From Pandoraea capi (GTDB taxonomy: Bacteria; Pseudomonadota; Gammaproteobacteria; Burkholderiales; Burkholderiaceae), in the NCBI RefSeq assembly GCF_902459735.1, contig NZ_CABPRV010000006.1, positions 62,001 through 126,000 on the forward strand: a stretch of 64,000 bases of DNA, in the 5' to 3' direction. The notes below the pieces were generated by a model. That model was not told where the DNA came from and searched no databases. It saw only the letters and a program-made list of their open reading frames with translations. Shown one piece after another: positions 40,121-64,000 of this stretch. Positions within the stretch are counted from its first letter, which is position 1. Each line of letters begins with the position of its first letter. The position numbers and the translations under genes were made by a program.

Positions 40121-40242
40121 CGCGATGTCGGGCGCTCGGAAGTGACGCGTACGGTGTCCCTTGCCATGCGTGGCGTCATCAGCCGGTGGCGATCGTGACC
40201 TGTGGCGGACACGGCGGGACGAAGTGGACCAGGCCGGGCGTC

Positions 40243-41691: not shown

Positions 41692-41696
41692 GGCGG

Positions 41697-44950: not shown

Positions 44951-45049
44951 CTGCTTCGATGGCGTGCACGGCCGAGCCTCATCAGGTCTCGGCACGTCGT
45001 TTGGTGAACGAACGGGTGGTTGGCGAAAGCCGTCACTGACGCGGCGCAT

Positions 45050-45078
45050 AGTATAGAACGATTCTCATTTACAGAGAA
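45050..45078 (-). promoter_or_regulatory. Fur-regulated promoter of the exporter operon
   Basis: On the minus strand, AAATGAGAATCGTTC (45071-45057) is a good Fur-box match and is followed directly by TATACT (45055-45050) as a -10. Iron-loaded Fur would cover the promoter, so export genes should be on only when iron is low. The -35 is weak. Confidence 0.65.
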
Positions 45079-45174: not shown

Positions 45175-45235
45175 TTGACAGAGGCGATGTGTCTTTTGTA
45201 GATTCCACCTCACTAATGAAGAATGATTCTCATTA
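45175..45235 (+). promoter_or_regulatory. Fur-regulated promoter of the biosynthetic genes
   Basis: TTGACA at 45175-45180 and TAGATT at 45199-45204 (18 bases apart) form a sigma-70-type promoter. The dyad TAATGA...TCATTA at 45214-45235, with internal GAATGATTCTC, is a strong Fur box just downstream. This predicts iron repression of the rightward operon starting with mbtH. No ECF-sigma promoter of the OrbS/PvdS type was seen. Confidence 0.7.
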
Positions 45236-45330
45236 ACTTGCTAAGAATCCTCGTAACGACCCTCGCATACATCGGGCGTTCGACGGAGAAATAAGTTGTA
45301 AGGAATACGAACCATCAAGGGAGTTATTCA

Positions 45331-45579
45331 ATGAGCTGGGATGACGAAAACGCGGAATTTGAAGTTGTCGTGAACCACGAGGCGCAGTATTCGATCTGGC
45401 CGAGTTACAAGGCAATCCCCGGTGGCTGGCGCGCCGTGGGCATGAAAGGCAACAAGGCGGCTTGTCTCGCGTACATCGAAGAGCACTGGACCGACATGCG
45501 ACCGCTCAGCCTGCAAAAGGCGATGAGCGAGCAGGCCGGGCAGTCGGCCGCTGTCGACGCCTCTGCGTCGGTGCACTGA
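45331..45579 (+). CDS. MbtH-like protein
   Basis: 82 residues. It has the conserved MbtH core: [15 protein letters not shown], the PGGWRAVG turn, and [17 protein letters not shown]. The three invariant tryptophans are present. MbtH proteins bind adenylation domains of NRPSs and are needed for their folding or activity. The last 18 residues are an extra tail. It is the first gene of the Fur-controlled biosynthetic run and serves the NRPS starting at 49317. Confidence 0.95.
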
Positions 45580-45630
45580 TTGGGCCGGCACCCTCGCCTG
45601 CACCCTATCGCGCCGACGCCTTCCGACACA

Positions 45631-46392
45631 ATGCGCCCCCCGATCCTCCTGTTCTGTCTTCCCTATGCGGGAGGCAGCGCGGCGATTTTCCGCGACTGGC
45701 AGCGTTCGCTGCCCGACTGGATTCGTGTGGTGACGCTGCATCCGGCCGGTCGCGGTGTACGTCATGGCGATACGCCGGTCCATCGCTGGCCGGCATTCGT
45801 CGACGACATGGCGAAACAGGCACTGACGTCCCTTGTCGTGCCGGGGCAGGCGCCGTTACCGTTCGCCATCTTCGGTCACAGCATGGGGGCGCTGGTGGGT
45901 CTGGAACTCGCGCATGTGCTGCGGGCCCGGCTGGGCGTGACGCCTTGCTGGTTCGGTGCGTCGGCGAGTCTGGCGCCGAGCCTGCGTGAGCGTGAGACAC
46001 ACTGGCTGACGTGCGACGACATGACGTTCAAGGCCGAAGTCCGGCGTCTTGGCGGCATGCCGGACAGCCTGCTGGAGAACGACGAGTTCATGGCGCTGGT
46101 CATGCCCGCCCTGCGTGCCGACTTTCACCTGTGCGGCACTTACGATCCGCCGGCACGCGCGCCGCTGGCGTGTCCGCTGCTGGCGATCAACGGTGAGGAC
46201 GACGCGCGTTGCATCGTTCCCGCAAACGACCCCGCGTGGGCAGGCGAGACGACGGGGCCATTTGCCTCGGCGCGCGTGCCTGCGGGGCATTTCTTCATCA
46301 ATACCCACCGAGATGCGCTGCTGGCGCAGGTGATCGCGCATCTGCGCGACGCTGTCGGTGTGAGCGAAACGCCTGTCCGGGCGCTCGCCTGA
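45631..46392 (+). CDS. Type II thioesterase of the NRPS cluster
   Basis: 253 residues from the ATG at 45631; a TTG at 45580 is in frame and would close the gap to mbtH, but neither has a clear ribosome site. The alpha/beta hydrolase features are present: LFCLPYAGGSAAIFRDW, the nucleophile motif FGHSMGALVGLELA, the aspartate region INGEDDARC and the histidine in PAGHFFI. These enzymes remove wrongly loaded or stalled groups from carrier domains. It is co-directional with mbtH and the rest of the cluster. Confidence 0.92.
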   Translation: MRPPILLFCLPYAGGSAAIFRDWQRSLPDWIRVVTLHPAGRGVRHGDTPVHRWPAFVDDMAKQALTSLVVPGQAPLPFAIFGHSMGALVGLELAHVLRARLGVTPCWFGASASLAPSLRERETHWLTCDDMTFKAEVRRLGGMPDSLLENDEFMALVMPALRADFHLCGTYDPPARAPLACPLLAINGEDDARCIVPANDPAWAGETTGPFASARVPAGHFFINTHRDALLAQVIAHLRDAVGVSETPVRALA

Positions 46393-46405
46393 CGTCAATA
46401 CGGAG

Positions 46406-47857
46406 ATGGACATCGTGCAAGGCCTCCCCCCGCTGTTCGATTTCGCCCCCTATCTCGAAGTGCGCGACGAAACGTTGCCCCTGATTCGGGAATTCGCGTC
46501 GCATATGGCGTTTCGTAGTGCCGTCGTCGAGGAGTTGGAGCTGGACGAAGACTTCTATCGCCGACCGCTGCGTCCCGAGGATCTCGAATTCCTCCAGTTC
46601 AAAAAGGCGGTGCGCGCCGAGACGGTCAGCCGTTTGCCGATGCTCGCGTCCCAGCGTCTGCTCATGTGCATCAACGAGGTCGGTATCGCCCGTATGCCGC
46701 GCCCCGGCGATGCCGAGGGTTTCGCCAGCGCCGATGCGTTCTACAGCGAGCGCAATCAGGTGCTCGGTGCACGCATCCGGCCGTATCTCGAGAACTATGC
46801 CTACACGTTCCTCGGCAATGAGGGCAAGGCCGACACCACGCCGGCGTCGCTGACCGAAGCCCTGCGTGCCATCGTGCAGACCGAACATGCGTGGTGGAGC
46901 GAGATGTTCGCGCTGCTCCAGCGCAACGAGTATCTGCCCGAGGGCCTGCGCTTCATCATGATCCAGCGCTGGAGCCTCGCGCCGTCGCGTCGTGCTGCCG
47001 TTGCACGTGCGGTGGCCTCCGGGTATTTCGACGCCGTCTCACCGGATGCCCGTCCTGTCATGGTCGATGCCGCGCAGGACGCCTTGCTTACCCGCGTCGC
47101 CGCGGCACTCGACCTGACGCGCCGCGAGCATTCGTACTGGCAGTTCTATCTGCCGACGAGCCTTGCCAAGTGCAACCTGCTGTACGCGCTGGGCGCACGT
47201 CCGGACCGGGCTTTTGCGTTGCTGGGCGCGGCGTTCGTTGCCGAGGCCGAAATGCTGGCGTTCTGTCAGGCCGCCGCTGCCGCCTGCCCGCACATGCTCC
47301 ATGGGTTGCCGATTCAGCAGCCGACGCTGGAAGACGCCGTGGCGGAGCTGCTTCGCCGTGCCTCGGCTGCGACGGCGCAAATCGACGACAAGTACGCCCA
47401 GCAGGGCCTGTATCGCGTCAGTCAGGGGCTCGGCGCTGCCGAACTCATGGCCGCACGGGGCCGTTGGGACCTCGGCGAGCAATTGCGCTGGCTGTCGGCC
47501 ATCGAGCGTTACGTCGCGTTTGCGAAGCAAGTCGAGGGACGTATCGAAGTCGAATGCCCGGGCATCGACCGGGAGACGTTCGTCGAGCCTCGCGAGATGT
47601 GTTCGACCACGCACGTGCACAACGACCACCGTCTGGTCGTCATCGAGTCGGGCGACATGATCTTCTGGGGCAACCTGGGGATGCAGCTCAAGATGAAGCA
47701 GGGCGACAGCGTGCTGATTCCGGATGGCCGTCTGCATGGCTCGACCGTGGTGTCGCACGAATGCACCTACCATCAGCCGATCATCCCCGACGAATGGATC
47801 GCGGCACTCCATGCGGGCACCATGCCGGCGCCGCAGTCCTCCGCTGCACTCGCCTGA
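46406..47857 (+). CDS. grbD: GrbD/SznF-like cupin protein, probable graminine biosynthesis
   Basis: 483 residues. A long helical region (about 20-370) is followed by a C-terminal cupin domain with His403, His405 (THVHNDH) and His444 (GRLHGS). The spacing of these three histidines (+2, +39) equals that of the cupin iron ligands I recall for SznF, the streptozocin N-nitrosourea-forming enzyme. GrbD of the gramibactin cluster is the siderophore relative. The helical part occupies the place of SznF's heme-oxygenase-like di-iron domain, but I do not see its Hx3DxxH motif, so only the cupin iron site looks intact. Likely role: N-N bond formation in making graminine from arginine together with the gene at 48070. 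Assignment is by motif and context, not by search. Confidence 0.72.
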   Translation: MDIVQGLPPLFDFAPYLEVRDETLPLIREFASHMAFRSAVVEELELDEDFYRRPLRPEDLEFLQFKKAVRAETVSRLPMLASQRLLMCINEVGIARMPRPGDAEGFASADAFYSERNQVLGARIRPYLENYAYTFLGNEGKADTTPASLTEALRAIVQTEHAWWSEMFALLQRNEYLPEGLRFIMIQRWSLAPSRRAAVARAVASGYFDAVSPDARPVMVDAAQDALLTRVAAALDLTRREHSYWQFYLPTSLAKCNLLYALGARPDRAFALLGAAFVAEAEMLAFCQAAAAACPHMLHGLPIQQPTLEDAVAELLRRASAATAQIDDKYAQQGLYRVSQGLGAAELMAARGRWDLGEQLRWLSAIERYVAFAKQVEGRIEVECPGIDRETFVEPREMCSTTHVHNDHRLVVIESGDMIFWGNLGMQLKMKQGDSVLIPDGRLHGSTVVSHECTYHQPIIPDEWIAALHAGTMPAPQSSAALA

Positions 47858-48069
47858 CGAGTGCACCTCATGCCCATGCGCGGCGACGCCGGCGCGCCCA
47901 CCTAGCGCCGGCGACCAGAGACTCAAGGCTATCGACTCGAATAGCCTGTTAGTACTACTAAATTCTAGGCACGTTCACACATCCCGCCGCCGGCTGTCCG
48001 GCGACGGTCGATGCGTGACGCAATGACAGCCGGCTCGGGCCGGCGCGCGCAGTTTCGACGGAGAAGCTC
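47858..48069. other. Spacer with small hairpin between grbD- and grbE-like genes
   Basis: 212 bases. AGGCTAT (47926-47932) and ATAGCCT (47941-47947) form a 7-bp hairpin, followed by an AT-rich patch with TAGTACTACTAAATTC that could be a promoter. No gene seen. Confidence 0.45.
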
Positions 48070-49194
48070 ATGCAGCTCGATCCCCCCGATACCCTGGGTT
48101 CCCAACGCTCTACCTCTGCCCCCGATGCTTCCGGGAATTCCCCTGCGCCCAAGCGCACCACGGCCAGCGACTGGCGCTCGCGCGTCATTCTCGGCGATCA
48201 GGTCGGGGATATCGAATTGCCTGACTGGCTGGAGACCTCGTACGAGACGCTGCGCACGCAGGTCATGCACCCGGAGTATCCGTGCTTCTTCGGCACGATC
48301 GCCGAGCGGCGCGGCGAGATGTTCTACACCTTCGTCAACGGCAAGGACAATGCGTCGCTGCCCGCCACGATGCTCACGTTCGCGCGTCTCGCGTCGCAGC
48401 CGGAATTCCGACGCAACAACATCGCGATCTTCTACGAGCCGGACGCCACGCCGCTCACGCACGCCGAATATCACGACCTGTTCTGGAACACGTTGCAGTA
48501 TCTGCACAACGTTGACCCCGATCCGGAGGCGGATCATCAGGTGCCGCCCTCGCACGAGGACTGGGAGTTCGGCTACGGCGGGCTTCAGATGTTCGTCGTC
48601 TGCGCCTGCCCGTCGTTCTCGTTGCGCCACAGTCGCAACCTCGGGCCGGGCATGGTGCTGCTGTTCCAGCCGCGCGCGGTGTTCGTCGACACCATCACGA
48701 ACAAGGTGATCGGGCGTCAGGCGCGCGAGCAGGTGCGCGAGAGACTGCGCAAGTGGGACGCCGTCGGCCCCCACCCGGACCTGGGCTTCTACGGCGATCC
48801 GGGCAACCTCGAATGGAAGCAGTACTTCCTTGAGGACGAGAACGTTGCCGCAGCCGATCAATGCCCGTTCCTCAAACGCATGCGTCGCGCCACGGAAGTC
48901 GCCACAGCGCCGACGGTGCAGGCCGACGCAGGCACGTCGGCGCCGATGCTCGGAAAGATTGCCGTCCATCCCAAACCGCACCCGACGCCATCCGTTTCCC
49001 CCGCGCACGTCGCTCATGCGGGTCACACCGGTCATGACGCGCATCTGGCGCGTCAGATGCATGCCGATGCGGGGCACGGACGGCTGATCGAGCAGGGCGA
49101 CGGCGAAACGAGCGACATGCCGGGCAGCCATAAATCGCATTCCGGGCCGCATGCGCAGGCACCCGTGCGCAACGACGGCGAGCATCCCGAGTAG
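48070..49194 (+). CDS. grbE: YqcI/YcgG-family heme enzyme (DcsA/GrbE-like), His-rich tail
   Basis: 374 residues with GGAGAAGCTC before the ATG. Residues 40-275 have the YqcI/YcgG pattern: MHPEYPCFFGTIAERRGEMF, FWNTLQYLHNVDPDPEADH, FVVCACPSFSLRHSRNLGPG, and the closing EDENVAAADQCPFLKR. DcsA of this family is a heme-dependent N-hydroxylase of L-arginine in D-cycloserine synthesis, and the gramibactin-type protein GrbE belongs with it. It would make N-hydroxyarginine for graminine. Residues 290-374 form an unusual low-complexity tail with many His (HPKPHPTPSVSPAHVAHAG and more), absent from what I know of the family. Confidence 0.75.
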   Translation: MQLDPPDTLGSQRSTSAPDASGNSPAPKRTTASDWRSRVILGDQVGDIELPDWLETSYETLRTQVMHPEYPCFFGTIAERRGEMFYTFVNGKDNASLPATMLTFARLASQPEFRRNNIAIFYEPDATPLTHAEYHDLFWNTLQYLHNVDPDPEADHQVPPSHEDWEFGYGGLQMFVVCACPSFSLRHSRNLGPGMVLLFQPRAVFVDTITNKVIGRQAREQVRERLRKWDAVGPHPDLGFYGDPGNLEWKQYFLEDENVAAADQCPFLKRMRRATEVATAPTVQADAGTSAPMLGKIAVHPKPHPTPSVSPAHVAHAGHTGHDAHLARQMHADAGHGRLIEQGDGETSDMPGSHKSHSGPHAQAPVRNDGEHPE

Positions 49195-49316
49195 TCGGCG
49201 CCCCCTGTCGGCATGCCAGCGAGGCGCGGCCCTTCGGTCGCGCCGTTCGCCTTGGATGACACGCATGCCACGAACGCAATGAATCGCAAAGAATGCAACG
49301 AACTTCAGGCACTCCG

Positions 49317-51340
49317 ATGTCCCAGACTCCCAAGCACATGGTTGAGCGACTGCAATCGCTCGCAATCGAACGTCCGAACGACACCGCACTGATCTGCGTG
49401 CAGGCTGGCGGCGAGACGTCGCACGGCTACGCCGAGCTCGACCAGCGTGCCAACGCGCTCGCGCACCGGCTCGGTGGGGGCGCGCTCAAGGGCGAGCGCG
49501 CCATTCTGCTCATGGACAGCGGCCTGTCGTATTTCACTGCATTCTTCGGCTGCCTTTACGCGGGCGTGCTCGCCGTGCCCGCCTTCGCGCCCGGGCGCAC
49601 GCGAGACGCGTACGCGGAGCGCCTGCGCGTGATGCTCGCGGACGCGCAGGCCCGCTGGGTGCTGGTGACCCCGGAGCACGCGCAGATCGCTCGCTCGCTG
49701 CTGGACCTATACGGGGAGACGGCGGAGCTGATCGTCATCGACGATTCGGGCGCCCCGGCGTCCACCTCGCGCATCGCCATCGATCTCACGTCGGAAGACA
49801 TCGCGTTCCTGCAATACACGTCGGGGTCGACTTCGGCCCCCAAGGGCGTGATGGTCACGCACGGTAACCTGATCGCCAATGAGGTGGCGATTCAGGAGCG
49901 TCTGGGCGTCACGCCGTCGGACGTGTTCGTGAGCTGGCTGCCGCTGCCGCACGATATGGGCATGATCGGCACGATGCTCCAGCCGGTCTACACGGGTATC
50001 CCGCTCGTGCTGATGTCGCCGAATCACTTCCTGGAGCAGCCGATCCGTTGGCTCGAAGCGATTGCCCGGCACGGGGGCACGATCTCGGGGGGGCCTGACT
50101 TTTCGTACCGTTTGCTCACTGAGCGTGTGCGCGATGCGCAGATGGACGGCATCGACCTGTCGAGCTGGCGTGTCGCGTTTTCCGGCTCGGAGCCGGTGCG
50201 CCACGACACGCTGTGCGAGTTCGTCGAGCGCTTCGGCGCGTGGGGCTTCCAGCCGGGCGCGGTCTATCCCTGCTACGGTCTGGCCGAAGCGACATTGCTC
50301 GTGACCGGGGTGACGCGTTCAAGCGGGATGTCGTCGCTGTCAGTGGACGGTGCCGACGGTGAGACCAAGTGGCTCGTGAGTTGCGGCAAGGTGCCGCAGG
50401 GACACGAGGTGCGCATTGTCGACCCGACCCGCGGCAAGACGCTCGGCGACGGCGAGATCGGCGAAATTCGCTTCAACGGCCCGAGCGTGACGGCGGGGTA
50501 CTGGCGCAATCCGGAGGCCAGCGCCGAGACGTTCGTCGAGGGCGAAGGCCGTCGCTGGCTGCGCACCGGCGATCTGGGCATGACGCGAGGCGATCACCTC
50601 TACGTGACCGGTCGCGTGAAGGACCTGATCATCGTGCGCGGCCAGAACGTGTATCCGCAGGATGTCGAACAGGTCGTCGAAGCGGAACTGGACATCGTTC
50701 GGTCGGGCCGCGTGTCGGCATTCGCGGTGGAAATCAACGGTCGCGAGAGCATCGGTCTCGCCGCTGAAATCTCGCGCCGCACGCAGAAGCTGCTGACGCC
50801 AGCACAGATCGTCGACGAACTCGACGCCGTGATCGCCCCCCGCTTCGGCGAAGCGCTCGGTGTCGTGGTCCTGCTCAATCCGGGCGGTCTGCCGAAGACA
50901 TCGAGCGGCAAGCTGCAACGTTCCGCAGCGGCGCGCGGCTGGCGCGAGCGCACGCTCGACGCCTGGGCGGTGTACGCCGACGGGACGTTCGACGAGGCAT
51001 ACGGTGCGTCGCATAACGAGGGCGTGGAAGCGAAACCTGTGGCAGGTGAAGCGTCGCCGGACACCGTGTCCGGACGTCTGGCGGTGATCTGGGCGGATGT
51101 TCTGGGCCACGCTACCGATGCCGTCGATGTGGGCAGCGCCCACTTCTTCCGTCTCGGCGGCAATTCGATTCAGGCGGTGCAACTGGCCGCGCGCGTGCAG
51201 GCCGCGTTCAATGTGCCGTTCGACGTTCGCGACGTCTTCGAACAGGCCGCCCTGCGCGATGCTGCGCGGCTCGTGACGCAACGTCAGGGCGAGGTCGCGC
51301 AGAAGGGAACGGCCGGGGCCGTTCCGCTGATTGCGCGCAA
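49317..51340 (+). other. NRPS loading module: FAAL + carrier
   Basis: The adenylating domain is of the fatty-acyl-AMP ligase type. FLQYTSGSTSAPKGVMVTH lies near 49803, then SWLPLPHDMGMIG (a FAAL hallmark) and FSGSEPVRHDTL. The A8-like TGRVKDLIIVRGQNVYPQD comes around 50610. The carrier motif LGGNSIQAVQL has its serine at 51165-51167. It activates a fatty acid and loads it on the first carrier. Confidence 0.88.
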
Positions 51341-54300
51341 TGCCGCGTATGACACCGTTGCACCGCTCACGCACGCGCAGCGCCGTCTCTGGTTCCTGTG
51401 GAATCTCGACGCCTTGGATACCGCGTATCACGTGGGCGGCCGGCTGACGTTCGGCGTATCGCCTGATGCGTCGGCATTGGAAGGGGCGTTGCGCGCCAGC
51501 GTGGCCCGTCACGCCGCCTTGCGCACCACGTTCGATACCGATGCGCAGGGCGAACCGGTGCAGCGGGTTGCGGGCATCGACACGGCGTCGCGCTTCACGA
51601 TAACGCAGACGCGACTCGATGACGTGGCCTTGCTCGACGCAGCGGCGCAGGCGTGGATCGATGCGCCGTTCGATCTTCGCGATGGCCCCCTGATGCGCGC
51701 CGCGCTGTTCACGACACCGGATCGTCGCGCGCATCTGGTCGTGGCATTGCATCACATCGTCTGCGACGCCTGGTCGATGCAGGGCTTCGTCGACGCGCTG
51801 GCAGACGACTATCTGGCTTGCCTGAACGGCCAGCCGACGCCGACGACCGACGATCCTGCCGCGCTCAGATATACCGATTTTGCCGTCTGGCAGCGCGATC
51901 AACGCGAGCACGAATCACGACAGCAGGAACTGGCCTACTGGTGCACCCATCTGGGCGACGAGCCTGCGCCGGCCATCCTTGGCGACCGCACGCGTGCGGG
52001 GAATGCGCCGCGACGCGCCGCCGCCCACGCGTTCGACTTCCCGCCGCAGGTTCACGCGGCACTGACGGGCGCGGCGGCGACGCACGGCGTGACGCCGTCC
52101 ATGCTGATTCTGGCGGCGTTGGGCCTCGTGCTGCGCCGTCACACCGCGAGCCACGACGTGCGTATCGGCATGCCCGTGGCGAATCGCCAGCATGCGGGCA
52201 CCGCACCGCTCATGGGGCTGTTCGTCAATACCGTGGTGATGAAGCTCGACGTGCAACCGGCCGGCACGCTGGCGGCGCTGCTCGCGCAGGTGCGCGACAC
52301 GGCGCTTGAAGCGCAGCGGCATCAGGACCTGCCGTTCGACGTGTTGCTCGACGCCCTGGCGCCGCATCGCAGCATGGGCCAGACGCCGCTGTTCCAGGTC
52401 ATGTACAACCATGTTCAGCAAGACGAGCGTTCGCTCACACGCTGGCCGGACATGGCCGCTACGCTGCATGGCATCGACGCGAGTGCTGCGCAATTCGATC
52501 TCACGCTGGACGTGCAGGCGTTCGCCGATGGCCGTCTCACCCCCCGATTCCGTTACGACGCCGACACGTTCGACGCCTCGACCATCGCGCGTCTGGCCGA
52601 TCACCTGTGTAACGCGGTGCAAGCGTTCATCGACCATGCCGCGACGGCGGTGCGGGACGTGGCGCTGATCGACAGGAACGAGCAGGACCGGCTGATGCAG
52701 TGGAGCGCGAGCCAACCGGTGTCGCCGGGCTTGCCGTTGCATCGGCGCATCGAAGCGCACGCCGCGCAAACACCGGACGCGATCGCCGTGACGTTTGAGG
52801 ACGTCGGTATGACGTACCGTGAGCTGAACGCGCGTGCGAACCGGCTGGCTCACGTGCTCATTGCGCGCGGCGTGAGGCGCGAATCGCGCGTGGGCGTTGC
52901 GCTGGAGCGTTCGCCGGACATGGTCGTCGCGATTCTGGCCGTACTCAAGGCGGGCGGCGCCTATGTCCCGCTCGACCCGCAATATCCGGCGGATCGCCTG
53001 AGTTTCCTGATGTCCGATAGCGGCATGGCGTTGCTGCTCACGCGCGAAAGTCTGCGTGAGCAACTTCCGGTGCCTGACGGCGTGCAGACGCTGCTGCTCG
53101 ATCATCACGATCATGAGCACGCAAGCGCGGCCGGGGATTCGGACGAGACGTCGCCGGGCAATCCGGACGTGCCGGTGCTGCCATCGCATCTGGCCTACAT
53201 CATTTACACCTCCGGTTCGACCGGCAAGCCGAAGGGCGCGCTCGTCACGCATGCGAATGTCGGGCGTTTGCTCGACGCCACGGATGCCGACTTCCGTTTC
53301 GGCGCGCAGGACGTGTGGACGCTGTTCCACTCCTATGCGTTCGACTTCTCGGTCTGGGAAATCTTTGGCGCGCTGTGCTACGGCGCACGGCTCGTGATCG
53401 TGCCGTACCTCGTGAGCCGTGCGGCGGACGACTTCCTGACGCTGTTGCGCCGCGAGCGCGTGACCGTGCTCAACCAGACGCCGTCGGCGTTCCGTCAGTT
53501 GCTGCAAGTCCCGGCGCTGGCGACGGCGGACGATCTGACGTTACGCGTGGTCGTGTTCGGCGGCGAGGCGCTGGAGCCGCAGACGCTGCGTCCGTGGTTC
53601 GAGCGCTTTGGCGACGCCCACCCGCGGATGATCAACATGTACGGGATCACCGAGACGACGGTGCACGTGACGTTCCGCCAGATCACGCAGGACGACCTCG
53701 CCGTGACGCGCAGCCCCGTGGGACGTGCCATCGTCGACCTCGGGCTGTACGTGCTCGACAGCGAGGGCGAACTCGCGCCCATCGGCGTGCCGGGCGAACT
53801 GCACGTGAGCGGGGCAGGCCTCGCACGCGGCTACTGGCAACGCGCATCGCTGAGCGCACAACGCTTCATCCCGGACACCTTCGCGGCAGACGGCGGCCGA
53901 CTGTACCGGACCGGCGATCTGGCGCGCTGGCGTGCCGATGGTGAGCTGGATTACCTCGGACGTATCGATCATCAGGTCAAGATTCGCGGTTTTCGTATCG
54001 AACTGGGCGAGATCGAGGCGCAACTGCTCGCGCAGCCCGGCGTACACGGTGCGGTCGCGAGCGTGCAGGAAGGCCCGGGCGGCGCACGTCTGATCGCGCA
54101 CGTGGCGGGCATCGCTCAGGTGCCTGCGCTGCGCAGTGCGCTGGGTGCGGTACTGCCGGATTACATGGTGCCCAAGGCGATCGTGGTCATGCCGGTGTTT
54201 CCGCTGACCGCGAACGGCAAGGTGGACCGCCGTGCCTTGCCTGCGCCCGAGTTCGGCCGTGGCGGCGACGTCGCGCCGCGCGCGGGCACCGAAGCCGTGC

Positions 54301-57300: not shown

Positions 57301-60300
57301 TCGAGACCACGCCGTTGCGTCAGGTGCAGCAGTGGACCGGACGCGCCGCCGAAGCGCTGTTCGACACCCTCGTCGTCTTCGAGAACTATCCGATCGATGC
57401 GGCCGTGCGTGCCGACGACGCGTCGTTGTCGCTCGCCGCCTTCGCCACGACCGAGCAGACCCATTACCCGCTGGTGCTCGCCGTGCTGCCCGGCGACACG
57501 CTGACGTTGCGCTGGAAGGCCAGGGCGTCGCGCATCGCGCCGCAGATCCTGCGCCAGTTGCAGGACGATCTGCGCGCGATTCTCGACCAACTGGCCCGCC
57601 CGGCCAACGACGTGCTGCCGAATGTCGGCGCCATCACGCTGTCCGGACGGATCGAACCGTCTCCGCTCACCTGTCACGCGTTCGAGCCGGTGATGCATCG
57701 CATTGCGGCGCAGGCGTGGGCGACGCCGCAACGTCCGGCCATCCATTGCGAAGGCGTCCGGTGGACGTACCAGACGCTGGACACGGCGGCCAACAGCATT
57801 GCCGTGGCGCTGGCCGCGGCCGGCGTGCTGGCCGACGAGCGTGTCGGGCTGTGCGTCGAGCGCTCGCCGTGGATGACGGCGGCGTTGCTCGGCGTGCTGC
57901 GTGCCGGGGGCGCCTTCGTGCCGCTCGATCCGTCGTATCCGTCCGACCGGCTGGCGTTCATGATGGAAGACGCGGGCGTGCGTCGCGTGTTGGCCGACGC
58001 CGCGACCGCGCAGGCGATGGCCGATGTCCTGAGCGGCCATGAAGTCATCGTCGTCGATACGCTGGACCGGGCGTCGACCGAGGTCGTTTGTCAGGAAGTG
58101 CATCCCGAACAGCTTGCCTACGTCATCTATACGTCGGGCTCGACGGGGCGTCCGAAGGGCGTGGCGATCTCGCATGGCGCATTCAGCCAGCACATCGACG
58201 ACTTCCTGAGCACGTACGCGATCTCGCAGGACGACAAGCAACTGCAATCGTCCACGATCAATTTCGACGTGGCGCTGCACGAGATGCTGCCGGCCCTGTG
58301 CAAGGGCGGACAAATCGAGATGCGCGGCGCGCAGGCGTGGGATCTGGAGACCACGAGCCGTCATCTGAGCGAAGAGGGTGTGACCTTCTCGCGGATTCCG
58401 ACCGCCTATTGGCAGCAATGGCTGCGCAATCCGCCGTCGCGCGAAGCGCTCGCCGGGCTGCGTCAGATCACCGTCGGCGGCGAGGGGCTGCCCGGCGATG
58501 CGCTGCGTCAATGGCAGGATGGCCCGCTGGCGGGCATTCAGCTCGATAACCTCTACGGCCCGACCGAGACGACCGTGGCCTGCATGTTCCGCCGCACGTG
58601 CGACGAAGACACGCAGCACGCCATCGTCTCCATCGGTGTGCCGTATCCGTCGCGCCGTGTCTACGTGATCGATCAGCACGGTCTCGAGGCGCCGGTCGAT
58701 GCGCTGGGCGAGCTTTGCATCGCGGGCCACACGCTGGCGCGCGGCTATCTGGGTCGCGCCGCATTGAGCGCGGAGAAGTTCGTGCCGGACCCGTTCATCG
58801 GCAACGGTGCCCGGATGTACCGCACCGGGGACCTCTGCCGACGCCGCGCCGACGGCCGCATTGATTTCCTCGGCCGTCTGGACGCGCAGGTCAAGCTGCG
58901 CGGCCTGCGGATCGAACTGGGCGAGATCGACGCGGTGCTGCGTCAGGTCCCGGGGGTTCGCGACGCGGTCGTGGCGCTGGTCGGCGCAGGCGAGGGCGCG
59001 CGACTGGCCGGCTACGTCGTGGGCGACGTGGCGGACGTGGTGCTGCGCCGCTCGCTGGAGCGCAAGTTGCCCGCGCACATGGTGCCGTCGGTGTTCGTGA
59101 ACCTCGATGCGCTGCCGGTCATGCCGAACGGCAAGACCGACCGTGCTGCGCTGCCGATGCCGCAGGACATGGCCTCGCGTGAACGTCAGGCGCCGGTGGG
59201 CGCCGTACAGACCGCCCTGCGCGACATCTGGCGCGACGTGCTGGGACGCGATGATGTTGGCGTGACGGACAACTTCTTCGAGATCGGCGGCGATTCGATT
59301 CTGAGCCTGCGCGTGATTGCGCAGGCCGCCGCCGCCGGGCTCAAGCTCACGCCGCGCCATATCTTCGACGCGCCGGACATCGAGCGGCTCTCGCTGCTGG
59401 CGGAGCCGCTGCACAGCCGCGAGACACACGTGGAGTGCCGCGATCCGCTGCCGCTCACGCCGATTCAGGCGACGTTCTTCCAACGTCACCCGCACGGCGA
59501 AGCGCATTGGAATCAGGCCGTGCTGCTGCATAGCGCATCCATGCCGGACGTCGCCGCGCTGCGACGCGCGCTGGACGCCGTCATGCAGGCGCACGACGCG
59601 CTGCGGCTGCGCTTCACGCGCACGCCGTCGGGCTGGCAGCAGCAGGTCGTGGCGGTGGACGCGCATAACCTGCTCGAAACGCTGGACCTTCGCGCCGAGA
59701 CGGACTGGCGTGCGGCCATCGACCGCGAGGGCACCCGTGTCCATCGCTCGCTCGACATCGGGCAGGGACCGCTGCTCAGGGCCAGTCTCATGCAGGTGCC
59801 CGAGGGCGCCTATCTGCTCGTCACCATCCATCACTTGGCGGTCGATGGCGTGTCCTGGCGCGTATTGCTCGACGAGCTGGAGCGTGCCTACCACGCCGCG
59901 CACGAATTGCGCGCGATCGAGCTTCCGGACAATACCCCTTGGAGCGTATGGGTGCAGGCGGCCGCCGATCATGCCGATTCGGCCGGCGTCATCGACGAAT
60001 TGCCGTGGTGGCGCGACGCGCTCACCGGTGCGAAACCGCTGTTCGACGGCGCCAGTGCGGGTAAGCCCCGTCAGACCCGTCAGTGGTCGCTCGGCGCGCA
60101 GTCGACGCGCGAACTGGTGACGCAGACCCGCAGCCGTCTTGGCATGCAGGTGGACGAAGCGTTGTTGGGCGTGCTGGCCCGCTCGCTGGGCGATGTCTTC
60201 GGCTGTGCGGACGCGGTCGTTGCCGTCGAAGGTCATGGCCGCGAAACGTTAGGCTCGCTGGGTCAAGCCGAGCATGCCCAGCTCGATCTGAGTTCGACCA

Positions 60301-63300
60301 TCGGCTGGTTCACGACGCGCTACCCGGTGCGCTTGCCATCGACCGGTGCATTGGACGAACAGCTTCTCGCGACGAAAGACACGTTGCGCGACGTCCCGAA
60401 CAAGGGCCTGCACTGGGGCCTGCTGGCGTGGCACGCGCGCGACGACGTGCGCGATGCGCTCGCCACGCTGCCTGTCGCACAGGTCGGCTTCAACTATCTC
60501 GGCAACCTCGATCAGGCGGTCGCGAGCGGCAGCCTGTTCGCGCTGTCGACGCTGCCCTGCGGCGAGATGGCCGTGGCGGCACCTGCACCGTTCGCGCTCG
60601 ATCTGAACGCACGTATTCAGGACGGTGCGCTGTCGATTACGTGGGACTACGACCCCGATCTGCTCGATGCCGCACAGGTCGAGCAGTGCATCGCGCGTTT
60701 CGACGCGCAGGTGCAGGCCGTGGTGGCCGCGACACGCGAGCGTGCTCGCCTCTTCTCGCGCAGCGACTTCCCGCGCGCGGCGCTGACTGCGGCGCAATGG
60801 CAACGGCTGTCGCTGGAAGCGTCGGGGGTGGAGGATGTCTATCCCGCCACGGCAGTCCAGCAGGGGTTGCTGTATCACGATCTGTCGTTGCCCGGCGAGG
60901 GCATGTACATCACGCAAAAGCGTGTGACGCTCGTTGGCGAGCTCAATGTCGACGCCCTGCGCGCGGCGTGGGAGCACGCCGTTGCACGTCACGCCGCGCT
61001 GCGCACGCGTTTCGCGTGGGGCCATGGCGGCCCGATCCTGCAAATCGTACAGTCGCGCGCCGAACTGCCGTTCACCGTGCATCCGGTGGCGGCGCACAAC
61101 GAAACGACGCTAGCCTTCGAGGCCCGTTTCTCACAGTGGCTGGCGAACGATCTGCGTGCCGGATTCGACGTCGAGCGCGCACCGCTGCTGCGGGTGAACG
61201 TATTCCTGCGCCCAGACAATGCAGCCGATCTGGTGTGGACAGCGCATCACGCCATTACCGACGGCTGGAGCAGCGCCTTGCTGATGGCCGAAGTGGTCGG
61301 TACCTATCGGCGGGTGTGCAACGGCGAGACGCGGGGACAGGCGAACGCGGCACCGGCGGTGCCGTACAGCCGTTACGTCGACTGGGTCTCGCGTCAGCCG
61401 TCTTCACGCGACTGGTGGGTGGCGCAAGCCGGTGATGCGTCCGAGCGCGGGCAGTTGCTGGCCTACGCCGCTGGCGAGTCCAGCGCCGCGGGGCAAGCGC
61501 TTACCTTCGAGGATGTGCTTCCCGACACGCTTGGCGCGAGACTCACCGAAGCCGCTCAGCGCTATCAGGTCACGATCAACACGGTGATGCAGGGCGCGTG
61601 GGCGATGCTGATTTCGCAGCATAGCTTCCGCCAATGCGTGACGTTCGGCGTGACGGTCTCGGGCCGTCCCGCGTCGCTGCCCGGCGCGCAGGACATGCTC
61701 GGCCTGTGCATCAACTCGTTGCCGCTGTTCGTCGCCGTCGAGCCGTCGCGCGACCTGGGGGAATGGCTGCGCGCGTTGCAGGCACAGAACGTCTCGCTGC
61801 GCGAGCACGAGCACACCCCGCTCGCCTCCGTCCAGCAATGGCTCGGCATGAACGGCACCGCGCCGTTCGATAGCCTGATGGTGTTCGAAAACTATCCGGT
61901 GGCAGCCGGGCTGCTCGATGGCGATGCGTCCTTGCGCGTCGGCCAGGTGCAGGGATGGGAGCGCACCAACTATCCTGTCACGCTCACGGTCGCCACGCGC
62001 GGCACGCCCACGCTGGGCTGGCGCTTCGACGCGACGCGTTGTTCGGACGCACTGGCGACACGGCTGCGTCGCGAGTACCTGACGTTGCTGAATGCGTTGG
62101 CCGACGCCCCGGCGACCGGCCAGCGCGTGGTTGACGCACTGACCCCGAACGCCGACACGACGAACGCACTCGCGGCGTTGGGCGAGGCCGTGGCGACCGA
62201 CGTCGCGACGACCCTGGTGGCCGCACGCATCGCGGCGCAGGCGCGACGCACCCCCGATGCCGTGGCGCTTGTCCTCGACGAGCGCAGCCTGAGCTTCGCT
62301 GAACTCGACGCTGCGGCCAACAGGCTGGCACACCGCCTGATCGGCATGCATGTCACGCCGGAAGCGCGCGTCGGTGTCGCGATGCATCGCTCCATCGACA
62401 TGGTGGTCGCGTTGCTGGCCGTCATGAAGGCAGGCGGCGCTTATGTGCCGCTCGATCCGGCTTATCCGGCGGCGCGCATCGCGCACATGATCGACGATAG
62501 CGGGGTGCGCGTCGTGCTCTCACAGGCAGACGTCTCGCTGTCGTTGTCGGCGGGCGTGCAGCGTCTAGATATCGACGCGTCCGTTCTGGCCGACGGTCAG
62601 CCGCTGCCGCCCGACGCGGCGTTGCACAGGGACAATCTGGCGTACGTCATTCACACGTCCGGCTCGACCGGCGTTCCGAAGGGCGTGGCGATCTCGCACG
62701 GCGCGCTCACGGGCCACGTCGACGCCACCATTGCCTACGCGAAGCTCAGTGCCGCCGACCGGGTGCTGCAATTCTCGACGGTGAACTTCGACGGCTTCGT
62801 CGAACAGCTTTTCCCGAGCCTGTGTGTCGGCGCGACGGTCGTGCTGCGCGGCCCGGATGTCTGGTCGAGCGACGAGTTTGTCGCGCGCGTACGCCATCAC
62901 GGTGTGACGGTGGCGCACTTGCCGACGGCCTACTGGCACGCGCTGACGCAGGATCTGGCCGATAGCGCCGAATCCCTCGCGCCGCTGCGTGAATTCCACG
63001 CCGGGGGCGAAGCGATGTCCGCGCAGGCATTGCGCCGCACGCGCGCGAGCGCCGGGCTGGCGCCGGTCACGCTGATCAACACTTACGGCCCGACCGAGGC
63101 CACCATTACGGCGACGGTCTACGATGCGGCGGAGATCGGTGCCGACGCGCTGCCGTCGCTGTCGGCCTTCGTGCCCATCGGACGTGCGCTGCCGGGACGT
63201 CGGTTGTATGTCGTGTCGCCGGATCTGTCGCTCGTGGCGCGCGGTGCCCCGGGCGAACTCCTGATCGGTGGCGACCTGCTCGCGCGCGGGTATCTGAACC

Positions 63301-64000
63301 GCCCGGCACTCACCGCCGAACGCTTCGTACCGGACGCCTTCGAGAATGACGGCGCGCGCCTGTATCGCACCGGCGATCTGGTGCGCTGGCGTGACGATGG
63401 CGCGCTTGATTATCTCGGTCGCATTGACCATCAGATCAAACTGCGTGGCTACCGGATCGAACCGGGCGAAATCGAAGCCGCGCTGACGGCGCAGGCAGGC
63501 GTGCGGGAAGCCGCTGCGATCGTGCGCACGGACGGCGCCCGCACGCGTCTGATTGCCTATGTGGGCCGTGAGCCATCGCAAGCCGTGGACGGCGGCCGAC
63601 TGCGCGAGGCGCTCGCCAACGCGCTGCCCGACTACATGGTGCCCGAGACGGTCGTCGTGCTCGACGCCCTGCCGCTCACCCCGGGCGGCAAGGTCGATCG
63701 CGTGGCGCTGCCGGACCCCGGAGCCGCCGTCACGGCGTTTGAAGCCCCGCAGGGCGAGACCGAGCGCGTGCTTGCCGACTTGTGGCAAACGGTGCTGGGC
63801 GTCCCGCAAGTGGGGCGTCACGACAACTTCTTTGCACTGGGCGGCGATTCGATCCTGAGTCTGCAAGTCGTGGCGCGTGCCCGTCAGAAGGGGCTGTCGT
63901 TGTCGCCGAAGCAACTCTTCTCGGCGCCGACGCTCGCCGCGCTGGCCGCGGTGACGACACCGGCCGAGGCCGGTGCCGCACGCGTGACGACCGACGACGC
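49317..64000 (+). CDS. Giant NRPS for lipopeptide siderophore (partial, runs off window)
   Basis: At least 4894 residues with no stop. The start is the ATG at 49317, eight bases after AGG; an in-frame ATG at 49293 lacks a ribosome site. Domain order: FAAL-T, C-A-T, C-T, C-A-T-E, C-A-T, continuing to the right. Carrier serines lie at 51165, 54378, 56142, 59295 and 63849 (first base). The fatty-acyl-AMP ligase at the front means the peptide begins with a fatty acid. The A-domain pocket residues of module 1 read DFWNVGMVHK, one change from the threonine code DFWNIGMVHK; the other two codes are unfamiliar. Module 2 has no A domain. With the GrbD/GrbE-like genes, the product is predicted to be a gramibactin-type siderophore. 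Codon use and GC are those of the core genome. Confidence 0.93.
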   Translation, partial: MSQTPKHMVERLQSLAIERPNDTALICVQAGGETSHGYAELDQRANALAHRLGGGALKGERAILLMDSGLSYFTAFFGCLYAGVLAVPAFAPGRTRDAYAERLRVMLADAQARWVLVTPEHAQIARSLLDLYGETAELIVIDDSGAPASTSRIAIDLTSEDIAFLQYTSGSTSAPKGVMVTHGNLIANEVAIQERLGVTPSDVFVSWLPLPHDMGMIGTMLQPVYTGIPLVLMSPNHFLEQPIRWLEAIARHGGTISGGPDFSYRLLTERVRDAQMDGIDLSSWRVAFSGSEPVRHDTLCEFVERFGAWGFQPGAVYPCYGLAEATLLVTGVTRSSGMSSLSVDGADGETKWLVSCGKVPQGHEVRIVDPTRGKTLGDGEIGEIRFNGPSVTAGYWRNPEASAETFVEGEGRRWLRTGDLGMTRGDHLYVTGRVKDLIIVRGQNVYPQDVEQVVEAELDIVRSGRVSAFAVEINGRESIGLAAEISRRTQKLLTPAQIVDELDAVIAPRFGEALGVVVLLNPGGLPKTSSGKLQRSAAARGWRERTLDAWAVYADGTFDEAYGASHNEGVEAKPVAGEASPDTVSGRLAVIWADVLGHATDAVDVGSAHFFRLGGNSIQAVQLAARVQAAFNVPFDVRDVFEQAALRDAARLVTQRQGEVAQKGTAGAVPLIARNAAYDTVAPLTHAQRRLWFLWNLDALDTAYHVGGRLTFGVSPDASALEGALRASVARHAALRTTFDTDAQGEPVQRVAGIDTASRFTITQTRLDDVALLDAAAQAWIDAPFDLRDGPLMRAALFTTPDRRAHLVVALHHIVCDAWSMQGFVDALADDYLACLNGQPTPTTDDPAALRYTDFAVWQRDQREHESRQQELAYWCTHLGDEPAPAILGDRTRAGNAPRRAAAHAFDFPPQVHAALTGAAATHGVTPSMLILAALGLVLRRHTASHDVRIGMPVANRQHAGTAPLMGLFVNTVVMKLDVQPAGTLAALLAQVRDTALEAQRHQDLPFDVLLDALAPHRSMGQTPLFQVMYNHVQQDERSLTRWPDMAATLHGIDASAAQFDLTLDVQAFADGRLTPRFRYDADTFDASTIARLADHLCNAVQAFIDHAATAVRDVALIDRNEQDRLMQWSASQPVSPGLPLHRRIEAHAAQTPDAIAVTFEDVGMTYRELNARANRLAHVLIARGVRRESRVGVALERSPDMVVAILAVLKAGGAYVPLDPQYPADRLSFLMSDSGMALLLTRESLREQLPVPDGVQTLLLDHHDHEHASAAGDSDETSPGNPDVPVLPSHLAYIIYTSGSTGKPKGALVTHANVGRLLDATDADFRFGAQDVWTLFHSYAFDFSVWEIFGALCYGARLVIVPYLVSRAADDFLTLLRRERVTVLNQTPSAFRQLLQVPALATADDLTLRVVVFGGEALEPQTLRPWFERFGDAHPRMINMYGITETTVHVTFRQITQDDLAVTRSPVGRAIVDLGLYVLDSEGELAPIGVPGELHVSGAGLARGYWQRASLSAQRFIPDTFAADGGRLYRTGDLARWRADGELDYLGRIDHQVKIRGFRIELGEIEAQLLAQPGVHGAVASVQEGPGGARLIAHVAGIAQVPALRSALGAVLPDYMVPKAIVVMPVFPLTANGKVDRRALPAPEFGRGGDVAPRAGTEAVLAKVWQDVLGVASVGRHDNFFAIGGDSLLTLKVVTRATQAGLALAPRHLFEHQSLAELAEALDHEGGVQGGQGDVGTQPALVPVPRGADAVLPLSYAQQRLWFLWHLQPESSAYHIAGGLRLQGKFDHRAKQAVQAAFDTLVARHESLRVTFAQAQGDAQSAGGPVAARQVVHDTMPVAVRHHDVSGTADPQAEAVALANAFARETFDLSQGPLLRVGIVTLSADEHHLLVSMHHIISDGWSIDRMLDEFVTCYRAALDGTTPVLPVLPVQYADHAVWQRRWLDAGERERQLAWWRATLGDRHPVLALPADRERRSLADYTAARHTFVLPAALTRQLRASAQRHDSTLFVALLTAYMATLYRHSGQRDIRVGVPVAGRERPEVNDVLGCFVNTQVLHAQPLRTQTLGALLHTVRANAAGAQAHRDLPFDVLVDALHPERNLRHTPIFQVVHNHRQPDHHVFDALDGLTVSRIDIAGRNVQFELTLDTEEAADGSVSAAMTYAREIFDEASVACWAAHFVNFCEALAGDPSIAVGQVTLRNADGSIMPLVDDVPSDFMLAHGGESANAGARAGAHRGAFETPASPAEQAVAAAWQSVLQIDRIGRHDNFFEIGGDSILSLQIVTALAREGWKITARQLFEAQTVATLAALAQPISEAGAASPSNGREVAAIADVGANGDIEAMYPATPLQSGLLFHSLMQSGRGIYVNQKRLTLRGALDHDRMRGAWTQVMARHAILRTHFSWAHGGDAMQVVSRHVGLPYTRHDWSVGPQATYDARLHAWLADDLAQGFDLAVAPLLRVNLFARPDGLTDLVWTDHHVLLDGWSAARLLAEVLAIYRGESLPEQSALPQYGEYVRWLDTQTDHADYWQARMRSLDEPATLVASLPAGPTAHDATSSTLLQVDDVLDATLDTRLRDAARRYHVTLNTMVQAAWAMLSSRYGNRTQVAFGVTLSGRENDLPGIDRTLGLFINSLPLWIDVPAASSVADWLQDVQQRGTALRAVETTPLRQVQQWTGRAAEALFDTLVVFENYPIDAAVRADDASLSLAAFATTEQTHYPLVLAVLPGDTLTLRWKARASRIAPQILRQLQDDLRAILDQLARPANDVLPNVGAITLSGRIEPSPLTCHAFEPVMHRIAAQAWATPQRPAIHCEGVRWTYQTLDTAANSIAVALAAAGVLADERVGLCVERSPWMTAALLGVLRAGGAFVPLDPSYPSDRLAFMMEDAGVRRVLADAATAQAMADVLSGHEVIVVDTLDRASTEVVCQEVHPEQLAYVIYTSGSTGRPKGVAISHGAFSQHIDDFLSTYAISQDDKQLQSSTINFDVALHEMLPALCKGGQIEMRGAQAWDLETTSRHLSEEGVTFSRIPTAYWQQWLRNPPSREALAGLRQITVGGEGLPGDALRQWQDGPLAGIQLDNLYGPTETTVACMFRRTCDEDTQHAIVSIGVPYPSRRVYVIDQHGLEAPVDALGELCIAGHTLARGYLGRAALSAEKFVPDPFIGNGARMYRTGDLCRRRADGRIDFLGRLDAQVKLRGLRIELGEIDAVLRQVPGVRDAVVALVGAGEGARLAGYVVGDVADVVLRRSLERKLPAHMVPSVFVNLDALPVMPNGKTDRAALPMPQDMASRERQAPVGAVQTALRDIWRDVLGRDDVGVTDNFFEIGGDSILSLRVIAQAAAAGLKLTPRHIFDAPDIERLSLLAEPLHSRETHVECRDPLPLTPIQATFFQRHPHGEAHWNQAVLLHSASMPDVAALRRALDAVMQAHDALRLRFTRTPSGWQQQVVAVDAHNLLETLDLRAETDWRAAIDREGTRVHRSLDIGQGPLLRASLMQVPEGAYLLVTIHHLAVDGVSWRVLLDELERAYHAAHELRAIELPDNTPWSVWVQAAADHADSAGVIDELPWWRDALTGAKPLFDGASAGKPRQTRQWSLGAQSTRELVTQTRSRLGMQVDEALLGVLARSLGDVFGCADAVVAVEGHGRETLGSLGQAEHAQLDLSSTIGWFTTRYPVRLPSTGALDEQLLATKDTLRDVPNKGLHWGLLAWHARDDVRDALATLPVAQVGFNYLGNLDQAVASGSLFALSTLPCGEMAVAAPAPFALDLNARIQDGALSITWDYDPDLLDAAQVEQCIARFDAQVQAVVAATRERARLFSRSDFPRAALTAAQWQRLSLEASGVEDVYPATAVQQGLLYHDLSLPGEGMYITQKRVTLVGELNVDALRAAWEHAVARHAALRTRFAWGHGGPILQIVQSRAELPFTVHPVAAHNETTLAFEARFSQWLANDLRAGFDVERAPLLRVNVFLRPDNAADLVWTAHHAITDGWSSALLMAEVVGTYRRVCNGETRGQANAAPAVPYSRYVDWVSRQPSSRDWWVAQAGDASERGQLLAYAAGESSAAGQALTFEDVLPDTLGARLTEAAQRYQVTINTVMQGAWAMLISQHSFRQCVTFGVTVSGRPASLPGAQDMLGLCINSLPLFVAVEPSRDLGEWLRALQAQNVSLREHEHTPLASVQQWLGMNGTAPFDSLMVFENYPVAAGLLDGDASLRVGQVQGWERTNYPVTLTVATRGTPTLGWRFDATRCSDALATRLRREYLTLLNALADAPATGQRVVDALTPNADTTNALAALGEAVATDVATTLVAARIAAQARRTPDAVALVLDERSLSFAELDAAANRLAHRLIGMHVTPEARVGVAMHRSIDMVVALLAVMKAGGAYVPLDPAYPAARIAHMIDDSGVRVVLSQADVSLSLSAGVQRLDIDASVLADGQPLPPDAALHRDNLAYVIHTSGSTGVPKGVAISHGALTGHVDATIAYAKLSAADRVLQFSTVNFDGFVEQLFPSLCVGATVVLRGPDVWSSDEFVARVRHHGVTVAHLPTAYWHALTQDLADSAESLAPLREFHAGGEAMSAQALRRTRASAGLAPVTLINTYGPTEATITATVYDAAEIGADALPSLSAFVPIGRALPGRRLYVVSPDLSLVARGAPGELLIGGDLLARGYLNRPALTAERFVPDAFENDGARLYRTGDLVRWRDDGALDYLGRIDHQIKLRGYRIEPGEIEAALTAQAGVREAAAIVRTDGARTRLIAYVGREPSQAVDGGRLREALANALPDYMVPETVVVLDALPLTPGGKVDRVALPDPGAAVTAFEAPQGETERVLADLWQTVLGVPQVGRHDNFFALGGDSILSLQVVARARQKGLSLSPKQLFSAPTLAALAAVTTPAEAGAARVTTDD
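51350..54490 (+). other. NRPS module 1: C-A-T, predicted threonine
   Basis: The C domain starts THAQRRLWFLWNL. Its active-site motif is HHIVCDAW (first His at 51750), with Ala where HHxxxDG normally has Gly. The A domain runs from about 52720 to 54230, with YTSGSTGKPKG, FDFSVWEIF, NQTPSAF, FGGEAL and NMYGITETTVHVT giving the pocket code DFWNVGMVH plus K. The carrier serine is at 54378-54380. Confidence 0.82.
54565..56250 (+). other. NRPS module 2: C-T without adenylation domain
   Basis: A complete C domain (SYAQQRLWFLWHLQ; HHIISDGW with first His at 54999) is followed by only about 70 residues of linker and then a carrier domain (DNFFEIGGDSILSLQ, serine at 56142-56144). There is no trace of an A domain between them, so the carrier must be loaded by another A domain in cis or in trans. 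Confidence 0.85.
56330..60800 (+). other. NRPS module 3: C-A-T-E, D-configured residue
   Basis: The C domain has YPATPLQSGLLFH and HHVLLDGW (first His 56745). The A domain pocket residues I read are D-V-H-S-T-G-L-V-A plus K, a code I do not recognise. The carrier serine is at 59295-59297. An epimerisation domain follows (59445-60790), with HHLAVDGVSW, VEGHGRE, TIGWFTTRYPV and VGFNYLGNLD, so the residue is converted to the D form. Confidence 0.82.
60820..64000 (+). other. NRPS module 4: C-A-T, continues past the window
   Basis: The C domain (YPATAVQQGLLYH; HHAITDGW, first His 61245) follows an E domain, so it should be of the D-L accepting type. The A domain has YVIHTSGSTGVPKG, FDGFVEQLF, AHLPTAYW, HAGGEAM and NTYGPTEATITATV. 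This gives a pocket code D-G-E-A-H-G-T-I-T plus K, not one I can assign. The carrier serine is at 63849-63851, and the frame is still open at the window end. Confidence 0.82.

Follow-up and report, generated by a model that had tools for sequence, protein, structure and literature searches.

A conserved Pandoraea gene cluster predicted to encode a siderophore with two graminine residues

Introduction

Gramibactin of Paraburkholderia graminis binds iron through two graminines and one beta-hydroxyaspartate (PMC6771848; PMC9679993), and its published description sets it apart as a chain of six amino acids (PMC9679993) with a C8:0 acyl group (PMC11837247). The grb cluster is described as encoding a GrbD/GrbE pair, a graminine-incorporating NRPS, an MbtH protein, a thioesterase and transport genes (PMC6771848; PMC9679993). 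Graminine is reported to derive from arginine (PMC9679993), and knock-outs demonstrated that grbD and grbE are required for it (PMC6771848). The second relative, tistrellabactin, is encoded by the mob genes on a plasmid of Tistrella mobilis and is described with one graminine, a hydroxamate and three Gln; one of its modules reportedly lacks both C and A domains, and the GrbE part is fused to an NRPS. Related chemistry is carried out by SznF of the streptozotocin pathway, a cupin with three histidines that also keeps a diiron oxygenase site, and by the Streptomyces pair ChmM/ChmN of chalkophomycin, in which an SznF homologue without the diiron-binding residues accompanies a YqcI/YcgG haem arginine N-oxygenase; the account of that system describes a copper-binding product and another A-domain code for graminine (PMC10849742). 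Finally, the genus Pandoraea itself is known for pandorabactin, a siderophore with hydroxamate ligands from N-hydroxyornithine and with beta-hydroxyaspartate, whose pan genes are described as starting with a FAAL domain and forming six modules.

Here we analyze a Pandoraea locus that shares with grb the GrbD/GrbE pair, the graminine-incorporating NRPS, the MbtH, thioesterase and transport genes and the predicted set of two graminines and one beta-hydroxyaspartate. It differs from gramibactin biosynthesis by its 11 adenylation domains, a module devoid of adenylation domain and an acylase that continues into a HemS-like domain. The graminine siderophore locus is real, intact and conserved, and we are highly confident that this cluster, probably under iron regulation, serves to make and secrete a bis-graminine peptide siderophore and to take it up again. 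The compound class is known; we found neither the predicted 11- or 12-residue product nor the acylase fusion described in the open-access literature, where the only Pandoraea siderophore that we identified is a hydroxamate. If the prediction is true, NO-releasing, light-sensitive graminine siderophores would occur in a genus some members of which are opportunists in cystic fibrosis, and the fusion and the incomplete module are testable features that would extend how such siderophores are built.

Results and discussion

Extent and gene content of the locus

The DNA analyzed, hereafter the window, is a stretch of 64,000 nucleotides corresponding to contig bases 62001-126000; positions above 64000 keep the window numbering on the fetched contig. 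Gene content, domain order, pocket codes, ligand residues and conservation were computed directly, and the reactions, regulation, product and deacylation proposed below are predictions drawn from them. The locus spans about 40.2 to 108.2 kb and is cut by the window edge. An earlier note on this DNA had placed a probable graminine lipopeptide siderophore locus at 45331-64000. Every component that it named was found, the efflux pump lying outside that range (40243-45049, minus strand), and the contents of the range stand, whereas its end is merely the window edge: NRPS 1 runs on to 77669 and further NRPS genes to 97270.

The pump genes encode, on the minus strand, an OmpQ-like outer-membrane efflux protein (40243..41697; PF02321, 144 bits), a PvdT/MacB-like ABC exporter (41697..43766; MacB_PCD 146 bits, ABC_tran 111 bits, FtsX 63 bits) and a PvdR-like membrane-fusion protein (43757..45049; HlyD_D23, 58.7 bits). 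The first open reading frame extends to 42228, with a real start probably near 41690, and the second extends to 44279, its start position being approximate. OmpQ-like copies are 76-78% identical in the four other Pandoraea clusters and 47% identical in Chitinasiproducens. Genes on the plus strand begin with an MbtH-like protein (45331..45579; PF03621, 81.8 bits), a type II thioesterase (45580..46392; PF00975, 135.8 bits), a GrbD-like cupin/haem-oxygenase-like protein (46406..47857), a GrbE-like YqcI/YcgG protein (48070..49194) and NRPS 1 (49293..77669, of which the window holds the part to 64000; domains mapped with Pfam). Beyond the window and still on the plus strand follow NRPS 2 (77662-80928), a TonB receptor (81162-83411), NRPS 3 (about 83456-97270), the acylase-HemS fusion (97267-100878), a Peripla_BP_2 binding protein (100942-101862), a FecCD double permease (101840-103864), an ABC ATPase (103903-104802), a PvdE-like cyclic-peptide exporter (104812-106551; TIGR01194, 573 bits for a cut-off of 286) and a phosphopantetheinyl transferase (107399-108151). 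By these family matches the receptor, binding protein, FecCD permease and ATPase are iron-uptake genes, and the first three would re-import the ferric complex. A plus-strand frame of 237 residues at 106591-107304 is without family and is matched in just one of the four other Pandoraea clusters; the true gene at this place is probably on the minus strand.

Candidate Fur boxes were scored against what we take to be the 19-bp Fur consensus. The two best sites of an 80-kb stretch are both located in cluster promoters: the top match at 45219..45237, ahead of the MbtH gene (15/19), and the site at 107327, ahead of the transferase gene (14/19). Shuffling the bases of the divergent region (281 bp) 1000 times gave a match of 15/19 in 3 cases. 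Sites ahead of the pump operon (45054..45072) and in the receptor promoter (81043/81049) score 13/19 and were graded weak, because the same score is likewise attained at four places outside the cluster promoters (37418, 42786, 53100 and 71711). The Fur-box-like sites are good at two promoters and weak at two; the gene cluster is probably iron-regulated.

A GrbD/GrbE pair for graminine formation

The GrbD-like protein, for which an NCBIfam scan returned no family, matches the solved SznF over residues 48-457 (E 3.6e-35). The SznF-type triad of histidines noticed earlier is borne out: three histidines align with H407, H409 and H448 of SznF, and all 40 homologous loci, representing 36 distinct sequences, retain them. 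These loci comprise 14 from a named genome collection, the Tistrella locus and 25 of 30 Burkholderiaceae loci, the five left out being those of the window's own genome and of four Pandoraea; 15 of the 45 GrbD-positive Burkholderiaceae genomes gave no locus for alignment. The diiron half of SznF has a different fate. Its ligands, presumably E189, E215, H225, E281, H311, D315 and H318 (numbers that fit the residues of the solved structure), are replaced at six of seven positions in the window protein, E215 by D and H311 by E among them, and only E281 is kept. The protein does not fit a bifunctional enzyme of the SznF type, and a separate haem-type enzyme is encoded next to it. Among the 40 loci, E281 is retained in 37, D315 in 7, E215 in 6 and H225 in 3.

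The phylogenetic check suggested by the earlier note was run with MobE of tistrellabactin, 51% identical to the window protein, as a stand-in for P. graminis GrbD. The window protein groups with MobE and the other homologues, and a split with support 1.0 and branch length 2.19 separates this group from SznF and two SznF-like proteins; within the GrbD clade the placement of the window protein with MobE is weak, their smallest shared clade comprising 20 sequences with a support of 0.17. The two SznF-like proteins, encoded on plasmids of Gloeothece and Azospirillum (L098:5872-7263 and L099:5890-7305), keep all seven diiron ligands together with the cupin histidines, and each gene is directly followed by a Rieske-type gene; such pairs are possible unexplored N-N bond pathways.

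The candidate for arginine N-hydroxylation proposed earlier also holds up. The GrbE-like protein belongs to the YqcI/YcgG family (PF08892, 203 bits) and matches the AglA structure (E 3.5e-34), and all 39 sequences compared share its Cys72, which aligns with the YPC motif of AglA. A GrbE gene is present in all 15 GrbD-positive records searched and lies 110-440 bp from GrbD in 38 of the 40 loci, the remaining two ending near a contig edge (L016) or being short (L071). Pandoraea GrbE proteins carry a histidine-rich C-terminal tail of about 95 of their 374 residues; in most other genera the matches end at about residue 277-308.

We infer that GrbE, as a haem enzyme, would hydroxylate arginine at the guanidine nitrogens and that GrbD, as a mononuclear-iron cupin, would rearrange this product to L-graminine with its N-nitroso-N-hydroxylamine side chain. 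The published account of chalkophomycin states that ChmN, a YqcI/YcgG enzyme, produces dihydroxyarginine and that N-N bond formation by the GrbD-type partner ChmM was not reconstituted (PMC10849742). Since a haem enzyme replacing the lost diiron half is already in print for ChmM/ChmN according to this account, the proposed mechanism of graminine formation is not new (PMC10849742).

The assembly line and its predicted product

The acyl-starting NRPS accompanied by MbtH and a type II thioesterase, as read earlier, is present: the open reading frame from 49293 opens with a fatty acyl-AMP-ligase-like loading domain and carrier (49353..51269, plus strand), which reach up to 394 bits with NCBIfam FAAL models, below their cut-offs. 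The domain map of NRPS 1 reads FAAL-T, C-A-T, C-T, C-A-T-E, C-A-T-E, C-A-T, C-A-T, C-A-T, C-TauD. NRPS 2 consists of a C-like domain without the HHxxxDG motif, then A and T, and NRPS 3 of four C-A-T modules and a thioesterase, bringing the assembly line to 11 adenylation domains and one A-less C-T module. The window holds, on the plus strand, module 1 (C-A-T, 51357..54479, Thr-type pocket DFWNVGMVH), module 2 (C-T, 54570..56243, C motif HHIISDG and intact carrier GGDS), module 3 (C-A-T-E, 56343..60791) and module 4 (C-A-T, 60837..63950), the E domain of which lies just beyond the edge. The pockets of modules 1 to 6 are Thr-type, none, DVHRTGLVA, DGEHHGTIT, Thr-type and DPEDHMTVT; those of modules 7 to 12 are DGEHHGTIT, Asp-type DLTKVGHVG, Gly-type, DGEDHGTVT, Gly-type and DVHRTGLVA. 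The Gly codes, gapped in the reading of this cluster, were completed from the clusters of relatives, and we presume that these pockets indeed select Gly.

The reported graminine code, DVHRTGLVAK (PMC10391617), is found identically at positions 1-9 in modules 3 and 12; its tenth position is Lys517. The same script retrieves it from tistrellabactin MobF, where the paper reports it. Two of the 11 amino-acid adenylation domains carry this code in each of five Pandoraea clusters and in Chitinasiproducens. Together with the constant presence of GrbE and the grouping with MobE, this upholds the assignment to the graminine type made in the earlier note. Codes for Thr and Asp are given in PMC3207962. 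As DGEDHGTVTK is reported for ornithine, beside DGEDHGTVVK for lysine (PMC12283262), the related basic pockets are probably ornithine-like; no published code matching DGEHHGTIT (present twice) or DPEDHMTVT was found in the open-access literature. The Asp-type pocket comes after the TauD domain fused to NRPS 1; a search of the open-access literature for an "interface domain" beside Asp hydroxylases found no paper. Two E domains carry the motif HHLAVDGVS and form a clade of their own with one Tistrella domain. The C domain at 56343, ahead of graminine module 3, falls among C domains of the post-epimerase type, yet there is no E domain upstream of it.

In the mechanism that we propose, the FAAL-like domain would prime the NRPS, and the 11 adenylation domains with the A-less module would build a chain of 11 or 12 residues, predicted as acyl-Thr-(Thr?)-Gra-X-Thr-X-X-betaOHAsp-Gly-Orn-Gly-Gra. 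Three Fe(III) ligands would be provided by the graminines at positions 3 and 12 and the beta-hydroxyaspartate at position 8. For a linear, deacylated chain Thr-Thr-Gra-Orn-Thr-Orn-Orn-OHAsp-Gly-Orn-Gly-Gra the calculated [M+H]+ would be about 1341.7, against 1240.6 with module 2 skipped and 1323.7 for a cyclic form; Lys or Dab at the Orn positions would change these values.

Most likely, the Thr adenylation domain next to module 2 also charges this module with a second Thr. The absence of any adenylation domain between the C domain and the carrier of module 2 would also suit a skipped module, giving an 11-mer, or a module that receives a different residue in trans from some other adenylation domain, and we grant this reading a real but lesser chance. 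We consider the module to be in use because both motifs mentioned above and the arrangement itself are kept in the six clusters examined. In the yersiniabactin synthetase an adjacent A-less module is loaded in cis. Tistrellabactin is also reported to gain a residue beyond its adenylation domains (PMC10391617). Both cases speak against the alternative reading.

The same data bear on whether the cluster could instead make pandorabactin or another hydroxamate siderophore, which shares with our prediction the genus, a FAAL-type start and a beta-hydroxyaspartate. A PF13434 search found no full-length ornithine/lysine N-hydroxylase in the window's genome, the best match there having 54.6 bits as against 394-404 bits in 12 other Pandoraea. 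Module order and codes also differ from those of pan, and the graminine code is present. The pandorabactin paper describes a hydroxamate/beta-hydroxyaspartate siderophore without mention of graminine or diazeniumdiolate, from which we conclude that pandorabactin is not the product of this cluster. Pandorabactin is accordingly ruled out, and a hydroxamate product of any kind appears vanishingly improbable. The earlier note had mentioned a related compound from Pandoraea; the one found in print is pandorabactin. The name "pandorachelin" is said to denote a Pandoraea graminine siderophore. Neither this name nor any graminine siderophore from Pandoraea was found among the open-access papers listed. 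The one match for diazeniumdiolate and Pandoraea in the open-access literature concerns fragin.

Conservation and distribution of the cluster

The gene order of the block is the same in four other Pandoraea, with proteins 64-94% identical except for one unassigned frame matched in one of them only, and we regard the block as real and not a product of chance on account of this conservation. The FecCD match in one of these genomes (G022) spans only 405 of 674 residues. Among the Pandoraea clusters the NRPS proteins share 74-84% identity and the GrbD proteins 90-93%; in the named genome collection the closest GrbD relatives are those of Pandoraea iniqua, Pandoraea sp. PE-S2T-3 and P. horticolens, at 92% identity. 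All five Pandoraea clusters (the window's own, G013, G014, G015 and G022) have an identical module order, A-less module included, and their pocket codes agree, gap positions aside, save for an I/V difference in one Thr-type pocket of G014. Module order is also the same in Chitinasiproducens palmae (G051), where DAEHHGTVT replaces one DGEHHGTIT, one further I/V difference occurs and three domains of NRPS 3 were matched in two pieces. Giant reading frames devoid of internal stops and the NRPS identities and shared order across five Pandoraea genomes argue against a degraded or silent relic, for which no support was found in the window's genome and which we hold to be most improbable. The cluster is thus best read as intact.

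GrbD-like genes are found in 5 of 32 Pandoraea genomes and in 45 of 398 sampled Burkholderiaceae genomes (E <= 0.001), including G246, where the match is weak (28.7 bits), and G335, where it is split in two. One Burkholderiaceae copy (G353:C2:1020140-1021567) has an in-frame TGA and possibly belongs to a decaying cluster. Full-length ornithine/lysine N-hydroxylases are carried by 12 of the 32 Pandoraea, none of which is among the five with GrbD, and 15 genomes have neither. With a chance of 0.077 for zero overlap, which is not significant, and with species that are not independent, this hints at alternative iron strategies within the genus without proof or established mutual exclusion.

The acylase-HemS fusion and the fate of the lipid

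The next gene after NRPS 3 codes for a PvdQ/MacQ-type Ntn acylase (PF01804, 345 bits) continued by a C-terminal part with the HemS/ChuX fold. The acylase reaches 483 bits with the NCBIfam PvdQ model, below the cut-off of 950. Its best solved relative is 5c9i, a "protein related to penicillin acylase" (686 bits), with PvdQ at 355 bits, and its GSN motif aligns with the GSN of 5c9i. When the HemS-like part was searched in the 398 Burkholderiaceae genomes, 99 matched: strongly the five Pandoraea GrbD carriers, more weakly and in two pieces Chitinasiproducens, and weakly the other 93. The fusion itself was found in 6 of the 398 genomes, all six carrying the graminine cluster. Ten weaker HemS matches in long frames (616-1239 residues) were rejected as further fusions, none having an acylase match, and the frames of the remaining weak matches are too short to include an acylase. 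A plasmid search returned 9 records, all below 60% identity. Unfused PvdQ-like acylases are encoded in other GrbD-positive genomes, so only the fusion is peculiar to Pandoraea, shared with Chitinasiproducens. The mob genes of Tistrella also include an unfused 36% match to the acylase (385010-386983), a predicted Ntn hydrolase according to its description.

A role of the fused HemS/ChuX domain as an ordinary haem binder for released NO was rejected: five of the six fused copies lack the "DTHQF" segment, which is conserved in six standalone HemS proteins and contains what we take to be their haem ligand histidine, and the sixth has no match to it. The domain may rather serve in maturation or siderophore binding.

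By family-level matches only, the cluster holds a pyoverdine-style set of PvdE-like exporter, acylase, membrane-fusion, MacB-type and outer-membrane efflux genes. Maturation could then follow the pyoverdine scheme, with lipid-anchored synthesis, removal of the acyl chain in the periplasm, and then secretion, as the PvdE-like exporter, the PvdQ-like acylase and the PvdRT-OmpQ-like pump suggest. With such an acylase and exporter encoded, the term "lipopeptide", used in the earlier note, may describe just an intermediate.

Being nearer to the penicillin acylase-related protein and below the PvdQ cut-off, the acylase could act on signal molecules instead, for example acyl-homoserine lactones, in which case it would be unrelated to the siderophore and the product would keep its fatty acid as a true lipopeptide. 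Megapolibactins and plantaribactin are acylated (PMC6771848), the latter reportedly with C12:0 where gramibactin has C8:0 (PMC11837247). However, in the six clusters examined the acylase is encoded after the last NRPS and ahead of the iron-transport genes, together with a PvdE-like exporter; in G041 an unfused acylase gene shares a contig with GrbE, at a distance of about 42 kb; and tistrellabactin, with its predicted Ntn hydrolase, is reported without a detected acyl group (PMC10391617). We judge retention of the lipid to be the less probable outcome, although one to be taken seriously, and favour deacylation. The full combination, a 12-residue bis-graminine siderophore of twice the gramibactin length, with PvdQ-type deacylation, a repurposed HemS/ChuX domain lacking the usual haem histidine (perhaps siderophore-binding) and a Thr from the A-less module, is put forward as a tentative and, taken as a whole, rather doubtful proposal.

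Sequences adjoining the cluster

Next to the pump genes, a block of low G+C content (35731-39350) encodes an HEPN_Swt1 protein, an AAA_15 ATPase and a DUF4435 protein. The G+C fraction is 0.496 for 36001-40242, compared with 0.632 for 1-36000 and 0.669 for the cluster, and this block is possibly a defence island.
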